DNA from: an uncultured Bacteroidota bacterium
GTDB lineage: Bacteria; Bacteroidota; Bacteroidia; JABEUT01
Length of the DNA: 64,000 nt
Direction of reading: 5' to 3'
NCBI GenBank assembly: GCA_903863935.1
Contig: CAIPDV010000042.1
Location: 1 to 64,000 of the forward strand
Positions 10,878 to 44,616 of the stretch are shown one piece after another (the stretch's first letter is position 1; every line of letters begins with the position of its first letter). Both the position numbers and the translations under genes were made by a program. The notes below the pieces were generated by a model. It searched no databases, had not been told where the DNA came from, and saw nothing but the letters and a program-made list of their open reading frames with translations.

Positions 10878-11825
10878 TCAGAAATATATATTTATATTCA
10901 GATGGCCCCAACCGTGGTAAACACCTGTAGAAAACTCGTTTGTAATATGGGTTACCGAATAGGTTACCGAGGTTTTATGATAAGACAGACATACCCCGTA
11001 AGAATCACCAAATAAGATTGGGGTTAAGGCTTTTGGGCTAATTGTATATATACTATTATGGGTGAATAAAGCACCTTCAAGAGTTCCGTTATAGCCAACC
11101 CCTTCAACCCAAGCCTGAACAATACCGTAAAGCTGAAATTTGGAAGTATGATTACCAATAAAGTAAGACTGCATTTTTCCTAGGTGAAGAGTTATTCCTG
11201 CCAGAGCATTATCATATACAGTTCCCATACTTATCTGCCCTGTGGCATCTATATCAATAGCTGTATCAGCATAAATTGCTTTTTCATAGCGTAATTTATA
11301 ATTCAGGTAGAGGCCTGTGCCAATCTGGTATTGCCAGCCTGTAGGCTGAATGTTATTCCCATACTTATGGATTTCCTTTTGTTCGGCTTCACATTCCGCA
11401 CATTGCCCTATTTCACCAACATCTACTTCGGCAGTAAGGGCTTGTTTTTTTGCATAATCAAATGAAGTTTTTGTATGCCCCAGATAAATATACCCGGCAA
11501 ATGGCCTGTCACCTCTTAAAATAGAATCGCTTGAAATGCTGGTGGGTGTAAAACAATCCTGCACAGCCGTTAAACCATACTGAATAGTTGTATGTTTTAA
11601 ATATGGAAGGAGCCACATTATGGGCGAGTATCTGAATACCGGACCAACTGCCTCCAGTTTTATTCCCTGGGTATAATATTCATCAGTTTGAGTGAAGTAG
11701 TCATTCTCGTAGTTTATTCCAAAATATCTGGCGTTACTTATTTTCGATTTTACACTATCTCTTTGTGCCGAAACTGTTAAGCCGAAGGATGCAAACAAAA
11801 CCAAGAGTAATAGTATGTACTTCAT
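10878..11825 (-). CDS. lpxR: LpxR-family lipid A deacylase (DUF2219)
   Basis: An outer-membrane barrel protein with a cleavable signal (MKYILLLLVLF...VSAQ). The LpxR/DUF2219 markers are the early GINYENDYFTQTDEYYTQG, the PFAGYIYLG segment, the long loop ending IQPTGWQYQIG, and a C-terminal aromatic residue (YF). The family removes the 3'-acyloxyacyl group of lipid A in the outer leaflet. The catalytic Asn/Asp of the YENDYF motif are present. The start at 11825 gives the better signal peptide; an ATG at 11852 would add nine residues. A CAECE insertion with two cysteines is unusual. It is divergent from the YD-repeat pair across a motif-rich intergenic region. Confidence 0.82.
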   Translation of the reverse strand: MKYILLLLVLFASFGLTVSAQRDSVKSKISNARYFGINYENDYFTQTDEYYTQGIKLEAVGPVFRYSPIMWLLPYLKHTTIQYGLTAVQDCFTPTSISSDSILRGDRPFAGYIYLGHTKTSFDYAKKQALTAEVDVGEIGQCAECEAEQKEIHKYGNNIQPTGWQYQIGTGLYLNYKLRYEKAIYADTAIDIDATGQISMGTVYDNALAGITLHLGKMQSYFIGNHTSKFQLYGIVQAWVEGVGYNGTLEGALFTHNSIYTISPKALTPILFGDSYGVCLSYHKTSVTYSVTHITNEFSTGVYHGWGHLNINIYF

Positions 11826-11852
11826 AAACGAATATACGGAGTTGTTTGACAT

Positions 11853-12272
11853 TGGGTTTTAGTCTGTACAGCCCGGTTTTTTATTTTTTGCCAGCCTGTC
11901 TTTGAGTTTTGTTTTACACTTTTATACAGTTTTACAGGTTCTACATAAGTGTAAATGATTTAATTTAATTGCTGATTATAAGCATATTATAAAACATCCA
12001 AATGTAAAACAAATGAATTTTGGTGTAAAACAACCATTAAACACCTGCCTATCGAGCACATGCAAAGTGCTGGTTATCTATAAGTTACAATCATTCATTT
12101 TTGTTTCACATCGCAACCATCTGATTATCTGATACCACATATTTTGTTTTACACCTCCACAGTCATTAATTCGGTTGTTTGAAATTGAAATCCCGACCGG
12201 AGTTTTTGCAGGATTATGCTCATTCCCAATTTCGATAGATTTTTATATTTGCATGATTAAACAACTACTTCC
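11853..12272. promoter_or_regulatory. 420-bp regulatory region with repeated TGTTTTACAC sites
   Basis: No gene is present. The 10-mer TGTTTTACAC occurs at 11910-11919, at 12023-12032 (inverted) and at 12145-12154. Shortened copies are at 12003-12011 (TGTAAAACA) and near 11930 (AGTTTTACAG). The 27 bases at 11907-11933 are identical to 43862-43888, upstream of the HTH gene at 44098. The arrangement looks like a set of operators between the divergent lpxR-like and YD-repeat genes. Confidence 0.55.
12244..12251 (+). promoter_or_regulatory. Promoter -7 element TATATTTG
   Basis: Exact TAnnTTTG match, 21 bases before the ATG at 12273. The nearest TGTTTTACAC site is about 90 bases upstream. Confidence 0.6.
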
Positions 12273-13835
12273 ATGGTAAAATCACGCTCTCTTTTAACCC
12301 TAATTGCTATTCTGGCTTTCTTTATTCCAAGAGTAAACGGTCAGGAGAACTATCCGATGGAAGACCTCAATGGATATTTGTTAAAAGCATTGAGCTCGAA
12401 CGAATGTTTGAATTATTTACAAGACACCAGTGGAAGAAGCGATACGTATTTCAAATCGGTTACAGAAATTAAATATGTTTCAAAAGACAGCCTGATTACC
12501 GATAAAAAAATTGAATCGAAGAAAACATACCGCTTTAATAGAAAGGGCCAAATTACCTCGTTCGTAACAACAGACACCATAGGAAAACTTACGGACAGTG
12601 CCATTGCATTTTATGATGATAAATTTCACCCATTGGGTATTAAAGAATATCGTTTTGAGGAAGATCAGGGCAAACTTACTTTACAGGGAGAAATTATTGG
12701 CAGATATGATGAAAAAGGGAATTGCATTTGGTTGAAGAACTGGACTTACCGGCCAAATCAATACAGGGAACTGGATGTAAAAACCGATAAACTAGAGGAT
12801 GATTCCACAATTGAAATTTCTGCAACTACCTACAATGATTTTAACAAACCGATAAAAACTGTTATAAGTGATAATAAAGGAGACACTACGTTTCTCTTTT
12901 GTACCTATAACGCCAATAAAAAACTGTCAACTGCCAAAGGCTTAATGAAAATGGCCAGGGACGGAGGCACATCAAGTATCCTGCAAATGCGGATGAGAAT
13001 ACGAACAGGTGATTATGCTGCCGATTCGTATTTTATGAAATTTGATGATAATGGGAACTTAATTCAATCGGTTGAATTTGGCGATAAAGACACCATGAAA
13101 AATGAGATAAACACGTATGATGAAACATCGAGGCTTATTACGAAAATTACGTATAAGAATGGAAAACTACAGGCAAGAAAAAAGATTGTTTATGGTTCAG
13201 AAGCGGAACGAACCGAAACAACCGAGAATTTCGGGAGCGCAGGCGATATGGATGATGATGAGTCCTCTGACTATTCGGAATACAAAGTAGCTCCAACTTC
13301 TTGTGTTATAAATTCCACAACTGTGGATGTGTATAATAACTTTGGCGACATAGATTCAGATAAGGTTTCCATAACAAGCAATGGAAAACCTTCTGTAAAA
13401 ACTACCGCACATAAATACCTTTACAATTATTTCGGAAAAGCCCTTTCCGATTCTGAATTAGTGGTTGAACAAAGCGAATACCATTCATCAGGGACCCTAT
13501 CAGTAAATTATTATAAATATGATAACTGGGGTAATATGCTTGAAAAAATCGGAAAAGGTGGAGAAGGAACCTCCGCAGATGTTCGTACTACATATACTTA
13601 TAACCCGCAAAACCGAATGTTATCGGAAGAAGATTACGGCTCCTGTTTGGATACACCATTCGCTACCTATAAAATAAAATATTACCCCGATGGAAGCACC
13701 GAAAAAGAAATAGAAACATCACGCGGTGCAAACCATTATATATACAGATTTGGAGAAGATACACGCAAAACTGAAAATATTAATTCCACCACATACGGAA
13801 TTGAACAAACTGTTTATGAATACCAGAATTGGTAA
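12273..13835 (+). CDS. Secreted YD/RHS-repeat-like protein, first of a tandem pair
   Basis: A 520-residue protein with a signal peptide (LLTLIAILAFFIPRVNGQ). The mature part is made of short beta units of the type YDEKGNCIW, FDDNGNLIQSVEF and YNPQNRMLSEEDYG, which resemble YD/RHS or MORN-like repeats of Bacteroidota surface proteins. No toxin or protease domain, no T9SS tail and no lipobox are visible. It is about the same length and shares block-by-block similarity with the next gene (compare FNRKGQIT...GKLTDSA with FNKSGQIT...GKLNDSA), so the pair arose by tandem duplication. Probably periplasmic or released; function unknown. It lies behind the motif-rich region. Confidence 0.8.
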   Translation: MVKSRSLLTLIAILAFFIPRVNGQENYPMEDLNGYLLKALSSNECLNYLQDTSGRSDTYFKSVTEIKYVSKDSLITDKKIESKKTYRFNRKGQITSFVTTDTIGKLTDSAIAFYDDKFHPLGIKEYRFEEDQGKLTLQGEIIGRYDEKGNCIWLKNWTYRPNQYRELDVKTDKLEDDSTIEISATTYNDFNKPIKTVISDNKGDTTFLFCTYNANKKLSTAKGLMKMARDGGTSSILQMRMRIRTGDYAADSYFMKFDDNGNLIQSVEFGDKDTMKNEINTYDETSRLITKITYKNGKLQARKKIVYGSEAERTETTENFGSAGDMDDDESSDYSEYKVAPTSCVINSTTVDVYNNFGDIDSDKVSITSNGKPSVKTTAHKYLYNYFGKALSDSELVVEQSEYHSSGTLSVNYYKYDNWGNMLEKIGKGGEGTSADVRTTYTYNPQNRMLSEEDYGSCLDTPFATYKIKYYPDGSTEKEIETSRGANHYIYRFGEDTRKTENINSTTYGIEQTVYEYQNW

Positions 13836-42224: not shown

Positions 42225-43748
42225 TTAAACTTTTGTCATCGCCTTTAGTACTATCCTGAATGTAGTTCCCTTATTTGCTTCTGAACTTTTCACAAATATT
42301 TTTCCTCCGTGATAATCTTCCACTATCCGCTTGCAAAGCGAAAGCCCAAGTCCCCAACCCCTGTCCTTAGTAGTATACCCTGGTTCAAAGACGGTCTTAT
42401 ATTTTCCTTTCGGAATGCCTTTTCCTGTATCGGTAATATCCACTGTTATAGTATCTGCCTGTCTTGATACATCAAGCGTTATAGAGCCCACACCGCCCAT
42501 TGCATCAATGGCATTGCGGAATAAATTTTCAATGACCCATGAAAACAAAGGTGGATTCAGCATAGCCACAGTATCCGTATCCGGAGGAACATTCAGCATG
42601 AATTTTACTTTTTGTGAACTGCGCGTTTTTATATAATCTTTGGTTTCCTCCAATTCATCCACCAGGTCGAATGGTTCAAGCTGCGGTGCAGAGCCTATCT
42701 TGGAGAACCTGCTGGTTATGGTCTCGAGCCGCTTCACATCTTTTTCCATTTCATCGGTAAGCTCTATATTTTTCGATTTCAGGTATTCCACCCAGGCCAT
42801 TAAGGATGTAAGCGGAGTGCCCAACTGGTGGGCCGTCTCTTTTGCAAGCCCTACCCAAACCCTGTTCTGTTCCGCCTTGCGTGAACTATTGAAAAGGTAA
42901 TAAGCCAGCATGATAAACAAACTTATTATCCCCAACTCTAAATATGGATAATAGCGAAGTTCCTTTGACAGTGAAGATTCCTCGTAAAAAATAAACCGCT
43001 TGCCTTCATCCGGCAATTCAATTTCGATTGGCGGATTGCTGTATCGCATATCAGCGATCAGTTCTTTCCGGTATACCGAATCCTTCATCTTCAATGTATC
43101 TACGTTTCCATACTCAACAATTTTTGTCTGCGTGGAATCTGTTAGTATTACCGGCACCGATGAAGCATTGGTCTGCACATCCTTCATGAATGATTCCACC
43201 AGATCATTTAGCACTACTTTCAGTTCGGTAAACAGTTTTGAATCGGAATAATAGAGATAGTTTTTCCGGTCTTTCGCAATAACAATTTCAATGGGTGTAT
43301 GCTGCTTACCCATCAGCCGCATCTGGCTGTTCAGGTATCCGGTATCATTCTGCTTTGCTTTTACAGTATCCGCTAAGTTCCGACTTTGCTGAGGTTTGCC
43401 CCTGTCGTCGACTAAAATAACAGGAACCGTTTGATTGTTCTTTATCACGTCGAGCAGGAAACTGAGATCACCTATCGGAGCATTCACGTCTCCAACCTTG
43501 CGGGTTGCATCGGCCCACAGTTGTACCTTTTGCCGCTCGTCCGAACCAATTTGATTGAACAAGTAATTGGCATATTTAACCAGCCTTGCTTTTTTCTGGA
43601 TGGCCTCGGCCCATAGCTGAACCTTGTTGCGTTCTTCCTTCTCTACCTTTTGAACCAGCCCGTTGGTATAGAACAACGATGCTCCTGCAATAAGAAAAGC
43701 CCCAATTATCAGGGCAAACTTCCAACGGCTTTTTTGGGTGTAGTTCAT
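42225..43748 (-). CDS. NtrY-like sensor histidine kinase with duplicated sensor segment
   Basis: A 507-residue kinase with membrane segments near 11-30 and 270-287 and a periplasmic domain between them. The cytoplasmic part has the H-box ETAHQLGTPLTSLMAW (His307), N-box ENLFRNAIDAM, G1 DTGKGIP and G2 RGWGLGLSLCKRI. The sensor repeats itself: residues ~108-177 (VPVILVDD...PIEIVIAKDRKNYLYYSDSKLFTEL) and ~198-266 (VPVILTDS...PIEIELPDEGKRFIFYEESSLSKEL) are co-linear. A second repeat (KVQLWAEA at 42, KVQLWADA at 74) precedes it. It heads an operon with hemW and the cyclase; a link to haem or redox state is possible but not shown. Confidence 0.92.
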   Translation of the reverse strand: MNYTQKSRWKFALIIGAFLIAGASLFYTNGLVQKVEKEERNKVQLWAEAIQKKARLVKYANYLFNQIGSDERQKVQLWADATRKVGDVNAPIGDLSFLLDVIKNNQTVPVILVDDRGKPQQSRNLADTVKAKQNDTGYLNSQMRLMGKQHTPIEIVIAKDRKNYLYYSDSKLFTELKVVLNDLVESFMKDVQTNASSVPVILTDSTQTKIVEYGNVDTLKMKDSVYRKELIADMRYSNPPIEIELPDEGKRFIFYEESSLSKELRYYPYLELGIISLFIMLAYYLFNSSRKAEQNRVWVGLAKETAHQLGTPLTSLMAWVEYLKSKNIELTDEMEKDVKRLETITSRFSKIGSAPQLEPFDLVDELEETKDYIKTRSSQKVKFMLNVPPDTDTVAMLNPPLFSWVIENLFRNAIDAMGGVGSITLDVSRQADTITVDITDTGKGIPKGKYKTVFEPGYTTKDRGWGLGLSLCKRIVEDYHGGKIFVKSSEANKGTTFRIVLKAMTKV

Positions 43749-43770: not shown

Positions 43771-43861
43771 ATTAGAATATTACGCTTACCCTTCTTTTTC
43801 CATGTTTCATTTAACATTGTTTGGCATTTGATTCCTTGAGTTTCTTGCTTACAATTCAGAT

Positions 43862-43975
43862 TTTTGTTTTACACTTTTATACAGTTTTCAAGATAGTGTT
43901 GCTGTGTCAAAATTTATTATATATAATTGTTTATCAATATATTCTAATCATTTTACATGTCCATTTGTTTTACAC
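43862..43975. promoter_or_regulatory. TGTTTTACAC sites upstream of the HTH gene
   Basis: TGTTTTACAC occurs at 43865-43874 and 43966-43975. The first lies in a 27-base block (43862-43888) identical to 11907-11933. No gene occupies 43771-44097. Candidate operators for the HTH protein encoded at 44098. Confidence 0.5.
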
Positions 43976-44097
43976 CCTTTAAATTTAAATCGTATGCAAT
44001 TCTAACATACCAAAACCTGCCTTATTCACCCCCGGTCAATGACTTTTTTAAAAAATGCTTTTTTGTGCAGTTTATTTGCATTGTTAAATTTAAAATC

Positions 44098-44616
44098 ATG
44101 GCAAAGAAATCATCGGCCGCAAGTACCGCACAACAGCAAACCCGCATGTTGAAGGCTTTACAAGCAAGTTATTGCAATGTAACAAGGGCCACAAAAGCAG
44201 TTGGCATAACACGCCAAACGCATTACAACTGGTATAAGAACGACCAGGAATACCAGGACAAAGTAGATGACCTGAAGTTTGAATGCCACGAAGAATTCAA
44301 GGACCTGGTAATGGAAGGGATCGTTAAAAAACTAAAGGAGGGAAATACGGCAATACTTTCCTTGTGTTATAAAACATTAGTAGTAAAGGATCAGGAGCAT
44401 TTAAGCAGTATGAATCCATATAAAACCCAGATGAGAGCCGTGTACAAACTGTCCGATCATAAGTCTGTAATGTATGCCAAAGACCCGGATACATCTAGGA
44501 TATTGAGCGAAATAGAGGAAGAAGGAAGCAATCCGAGGCAAAGGCTGGACCCCTTCTCTCCGGAGGGAATAAGGGCTTATGAAGAGGTGCTGAGGCGACA
44601 GCGGGAGGGGAAATGA
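44098..44616 (+). CDS. HTH DNA-binding protein (phage terminase small subunit-like)
   Basis: The 172 residues begin MAKKSSAAST and carry an N-terminal helix-turn-helix (NVTRATKAVGITRQTHYNWYK, about residues 26-46) of the type in phage terminase small subunits and transposase-like HTH proteins. It is followed by a charged helical segment and a Pro-rich basic tail. The ATG at 44098 was preferred to a frame that begins 47 codons upstream, because the upstream part covers the repeated-motif region and has poor composition. No other phage genes adjoin, so it is probably a domesticated chromosomal DNA-binding protein. Binding to TGTTTTACAC is an inference from position. Confidence 0.78.
   Translation: MAKKSSAASTAQQQTRMLKALQASYCNVTRATKAVGITRQTHYNWYKNDQEYQDKVDDLKFECHEEFKDLVMEGIVKKLKEGNTAILSLCYKTLVVKDQEHLSSMNPYKTQMRAVYKLSDHKSVMYAKDPDTSRILSEIEEEGSNPRQRLDPFSPEGIRAYEEVLRRQREGK

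Follow-up and report, generated by a model that had tools for sequence, protein, structure and literature searches.

Small IHF-containing repeats located before genes are well known in Neisseria. The Correia elements (CREE/NEMIS) of that genus are non-coding, measure 153-157 or 104-108 bp and possess inverted end repeats; the long form contains an IHF site, many copies lie upstream of genes, and the host promoter is sometimes found between the element and the gene (PMC2649163). MITEs, as reviewed in PMC10969869, are likewise short, non-coding, multi-copy and mostly intergenic, with inverted ends. The element described below, from an uncultured member of the Bacteroidota, is closest in kind to the Correia elements, with which it has in common its small size, lack of coding capacity, IHF-type site and position upstream of genes, with a promoter between element and gene in some cases; an inverted second end word is present in part of the copies. 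In contrast to Correia elements, it has an unrelated sequence, belongs to a different phylum, is present in ~19 copies rather than ~120-250, yielded no target-site duplication, has a drifted interior in which only binding-type words are kept, and turns an asymmetric end toward the gene. Like MITEs, it is short, non-coding, multi-copy and intergenic, with an inverted end word in part of the copies; it differs from them in that no parental transposon and no target-site duplication were found and the copies are not near-identical.

The window, by which we mean the whole 64,000-nucleotide stretch analyzed, contains 6 exact matches to TGTTTTACAC compared to 0.22 expected from dinucleotide shuffles, none of which reached 6. 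A first-pass annotation of this DNA had placed the 10-mer three times before a YD-repeat gene pair and twice before an HTH gene at 44098; all five places were confirmed, and the remaining match, which that annotation had overlooked, falls within the LpxR-like coding sequence (11546, minus strand). The 27-bp block it had described as common to the two loci (11907-11933 and 43862-43888) is indeed exactly identical. Its further statement that the loci are alike nowhere else is nearly correct by plain identity, but fails at the level of a profile, built with both window copies in its training set, that aligns the two loci across ~135 bp (Table 1). Over the genome as a whole (3.76 Mb in 126 contigs), exact copies of TGTTTTACAC number 44 and those of a reversed-letter control 11. 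The genome-wide count also bore out an intergenic enrichment, which the annotation had proposed as a check, as ~31 of the 44 copies (~70%) lie between genes while the non-coding share of the fetched DNA is only ~10% (binomial P ~6e-21 at p=0.105 and 7e-13 at p=0.2), a fraction that is approximate given a simple longest-ORF scheme for gene calls and stretches chosen around the sites. The match at 43966 was scored as genic in this count since the HTH ORF had been extended upstream.

Table 1. Positions in the window of the repeated word, the two element copies, their parts and the genes that they face.
Feature	Position	Strand	Basis or remark
TGTTTTACAC, exact matches	11546(-), 11910(+), 12023(-), 12145(+), 43865(+), 43966(+)		
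Copy A	11904..12035	+	profile match 11905-12039, 66.8 bits, E=6e-18; alignment
Copy A conserved end GAGTTTTGTTTTACACTTTTATACAGTTTT, phased TTTTACAC-type words	11904..11933	+	alignment
Copy A internal GTGTAAAT word, +43	11949..11956	+	alignment
Copy A imperfect inverted end word ATGTAAAACAAAT, +95	12002..12014	-	inverted-repeat search
Copy A inverted end word GTGTAAAACAACC, +116	12023..12035	-	inverted-repeat search
Extra end word TTTTGTTTTACAC, +235	12142..12154	+	118 bp before YD/RHS-repeat gene at 12273
Copy B	43859..43975	+	profile match 43860-43996, 63.5 bits, E=6e-17
Copy B conserved end GATTTTTGTTTTACACTTTTATACAGTTTT	43859..43888	+	alignment
Copy B internal TGTGTCAAA word	43904..43912	+	alignment
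Copy B IHF-like site TATCAATATATTC, +70	43932..43944	+	12/13 positions of WATCAANNNNTTR
Copy B direct end word ATTTGTTTTACAC, +101	43963..43975	+	word search
LpxR-like outer-membrane protein gene, faced by copy A	10878..11852	-	PF09982 E=5e-47
Histidine kinase gene, faced by copy B	42225..43748	-	PF02518 E=8e-23

The block bearing TGTTTTACAC forms one end, the conserved one, of a ~130-bp non-coding intergenic element. A sequence-only profile returned 19 matches of ~130-140 bp on the family strand in this genome (E<1e-5), of which only the nineteenth (C58:1835-1962) was found independently, the profile having been trained on the 18 aligned copies. Weak matches on the opposite strand at several copies result from the inverted ends of the element. 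All 18 copies examined sit between genes. The aligned copies begin with GASTTTTRTTTTACACTTTTWTACASTTTT at a sharp outer edge, across which mean pairwise identity changes from 0.33 outside to 0.89 inside. Ungapped pairwise identity was 0.89 for the first 20 bases, 0.71 for the next 10 and ~0.3-0.4 for the next 80, compared to ~0.3 beyond the edge; the interior has thus drifted almost to background, while the end is near identical. Rfam models identified two tRNAs in the window and no family at the element.

Several shorter words recur inside the element. A TGTAAA word is found at about +44, and an IHF-type consensus, WATCAANNNNTTR, near +70 (placed at +56 to +72). This consensus occurs within +40..+100 in 9 of the 18 copies, compared to 0.29 expected and a maximum of 2 in 500 shuffles, and other family members carry it exactly at the position matching the IHF-like site of copy B; we regard these sites as candidates for binding. 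A second end word is present in inverted orientation in ~10 of the 18 copies, at +107 to +126 (about +116); in the remainder it either runs in direct orientation (about +91 to +102) or is degenerate. Several copies have additional end words grouped no more than 250 bp away. By eye, the words along some copies show an apparent periodicity of ~73 bp. The copy at L033:8145-8360, located past the end of an MFS gene rather than before a start, carries three consecutive inverted end words (+114, +189 and +203). Near position 5671 of L102, on the minus strand, a related-looking inverted pair with another end word (TCTTATATTTTACAC ... GTGTAAAATAAGA) may represent a second subfamily.

With these parts, the element appears to have the build of a nucleoprotein assembly site, and two uses fit the layout: a recombinase complex of a mobile element, or a regulatory complex upstream of a promoter. 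The region upstream of E. coli ompF provides an example of the latter, with OmpR sites near the promoter, an IHF site and a distal OmpR site. The element resembles it in having phased direct repeats, an IHF-type bend site, a distal repeat and a promoter downstream, and differs from it in lacking a fixed promoter distance, in preceding ~19 unrelated genes and in having no regulator found.

In our judgment the most likely account, to which we give about an even chance, is that of a non-autonomous, MITE/Correia-type mobile element. The sequences directly establish the repeat family, its anatomy, its location between genes, its biased orientation and its absence from the orthologous gaps compared; from them we infer an element that moves by means of an enzyme supplied in trans, is bound by IHF and may affect transcription. 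The end words would serve as substrate for a trans-acting recombinase that spread the element, and copies would have inserted, or persisted, immediately before promoters, the conserved end pointing to the gene. The phased words at that end would bind a protein, IHF or HU would bend the DNA at +70, ~70 bp into the element, and the bend would bring the ends of the element together, with the far end word (~100-116 bp in) joining the complex. Spread by copying is favored because the multi-part layout stands before unrelated genes, is absent in relatives, has inverted ends and lies at a variable distance from the promoter; an arrangement of four or five spaced parts would hardly arise in front of unrelated genes without copying, and the variable distance is unlike that of a fixed activator site. 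If true, this account would provide an independent case, in an unrelated lineage, of mobile DNA supplying regulatory sites. It nevertheless has real weaknesses. The shared flank measured 2.65 bases compared to 2.45 by chance in shuffled pairs, showing no target-site duplication, and none of the 7 tyrosine-recombinase genes in the 126-contig assembly adjoins an element, in a search confined to that family of enzymes. A near-identical end beside a drifted interior would likewise be odd for dead insertions. Since the target-site duplication was looked for and not found, we place the element as working like a MITE or Correia element, rather than as a proven member of either.

The position of the copies relative to genes bears on both uses. 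Of the 18 copies examined, 16 turn the conserved end toward a gene reading away from it, 30-185 bp upstream of that gene; L033 and L100 are the two exceptions, in which no gene start is faced. The faced genes are those for an LpxR-like protein (by homology, a lipid A deacylase), a histidine kinase, mnmE, trhO, an MFS transporter, PBP1a, ruvA, mltG, a carboxyltransferase, ispB, a surface protein, secDF, the small SRP RNA (RF04183), a TPR protein, a receiver-domain protein and, at L045, an electron-transfer flavoprotein-like protein judged by its N-terminus (mnmE, ispB and the L045 gene were named by eye from sequence). No functional theme is evident among them. Compared to random intergenic placement, which predicts 0.57-0.58 per copy, the bias corresponds to P ~0.004-0.006, a value that is descriptive, as the bias was spotted in the data before the test. 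Genes on the other side of the element follow no comparable rule. In the window, the conserved end of copy A lies 54 bp from the start of the LpxR-like gene (11852) and that of copy B 113 bp from the start of the histidine kinase gene (43748), with a TAnnTTTG box 91 bp from copy B on the kinase side. This box, the -7 promoter consensus of Bacteroidota, separates element and gene in 9 of 15 cases compared to 1.5 expected, its distance from the element ranging from 25 to 121 bp. Because boxes lie between the two at varying distances, the element is placed before core promoters without a constant spacing. The first-pass annotation had named as the contrary case a repeat family scattered without relation to genes; a scattered family of ~19 copies it is, but its relation to genes is clear.

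The gene-facing bias counts against the mobile-element account, and, together with strict conservation of the end beside a drifted interior, suggests that the end is still in use, making a regulatory role a serious rival or a second layer. The main rival is a dedicated regulatory module, in which a DNA-binding protein would occupy the phased words, IHF would bend the DNA and the distal word would join the complex, activating or repressing ~19 promoters. An OmpR/PhoB-type response regulator, for example, would be a candidate, as regulators of this class bind direct repeats about one helical turn apart. The contrast between end and interior, the orientation of 16 of the 18 copies, the intervening TAnnTTTG boxes, the intergenic location of ~70% of the exact 10-mers and the extra end words near several copies are each consistent with such a module, yet it would have to act over promoter distances of 25 to 121 bp, on genes lacking a shared theme, with the L033 and L100 copies facing no gene start, the element missing from congeners that possess the same genes, and no cognate regulator found. 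On balance, we consider a dedicated module possible but doubtful. The module may also owe its spread to an old mobile element and have been kept afterwards. A more specific proposal, that a mobile module particular to this lineage inserts in fixed orientation before housekeeping promoters and is now, or is spreading as, a global regulatory input, its phased sites and IHF bend connecting unrelated genes to one DNA-binding protein, strikes us as unlikely.

The lineage has no other described genus of its order in the collection, such that ten congeners constitute the nearest comparison. In these, the profile returned no match at E<1e-5, the best reaching 21.9 bits (E=5e-4). Where gene order is kept, the maeB-ruvA gap measures ~30-115 bp in G001, G003, G004, G008 and G009 compared to ~480 bp here; the gap from the stop of the preceding gene to the ispB start measures 57 bp in G002 compared to ~315 bp here. 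A short, lipoprotein-like ORF (~60 aa) sits beside the element between maeB and ruvA (L036, 9881 to 10291), so the extra DNA at that gap is only partly element. Given these short gaps, the ruvA and ispB copies look to have been gained in this lineage, which is the simplest reading. The first-pass annotation had suggested looking for the motif before orthologues, and the outcome was negative: ispB, ruvA and mnmE are not preceded by the element in those congeners that were compared, which include several incomplete genomes and are too distant (RuvA identity 65-86%, IspB 67-80%) for exact empty-site boundaries to be drawn. Among 84,980 species, in a scan that may leave out this genome and very near ones, the exact 22-base core was matched 34 times, in no case accompanied by the remainder of the element; outside the genus, it occurs only in T-rich tandem words without the other parts. 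A phage or plasmid origin was rejected, as a 23-base core had no match in viral contigs and one copy, submitted to blastn, matched phages and plasmids only over short stretches attributable to chance. Among the titles and abstracts listed, the literature had nothing relevant for the exact 10-mer on either strand.

We also asked whether the end words might be degenerate DnaA boxes (TTWTNCAC plus T/C), acting with IHF in chromosome maintenance to titrate or reload DnaA, or serving a nucleoid-organizing protein. DnaA boxes are paired with IHF at datA/DARS sites, and TTTTACAC fits the DnaA-box consensus TTWTNCACA at 8 of 9 positions, although the ninth base of the end words is T or C rather than A. 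Tandems of TTTTTTACAC run directly into a perfect DnaA box, TTATCCACA, in two Flavobacteria contigs (L184 near 7970 and L197 near 2785), consistent with this reading; in this genome, however, no end-like words occur near dnaA, and the gene-facing orientation would be left unexplained. We consider a role of this kind improbable. The L184 and L197 tandems are perhaps a piece of an origin or of a dnaA-type regulatory region.

Finally, the first-pass annotation had taken the words for operators of one regulator, perhaps the 172-aa HTH protein, which would then govern its own gene together with the YD-repeat pair. The HTH start is indeed preceded by two end words, at distances of 235 and 134 bp, and the YD gene by one (Table 1), so that an effect on the YD gene is possible. 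The motif itself stands as real, intergenic, multi-copy, seemingly protein-binding and located before promoters; control by the HTH protein does not, its support having gone after checks of copy number, orientation and paralogues. The words belong to a genome-wide family of ~19 copies, mostly before unrelated housekeeping genes, and the conserved ends at both window loci face the LpxR-like and histidine kinase genes instead. The HTH protein has a terminase-small-subunit-like HTH (PHROG E=2e-6; PF13022 E=2e-5, below the family cut-off). The genus contains multiple copies of it without the motif: paralogues are encoded here, and relatives occur in seven of the ten congeners, none of which has the element. 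These checks remove the reason to link the protein with the motif, which it may nonetheless bind, and leave the operator model highly improbable. A genome-wide count is accordingly needed before a block common to two intergenic regions is taken for the operator of whichever HTH gene lies nearest. The closest HTH paralogue (C81:58882, 44% identity) is on a contig without an exact motif copy. It is located ~1.5 kb from a tyrosine recombinase gene (C81, 58882-61237, G000), hinting at a mobile region.
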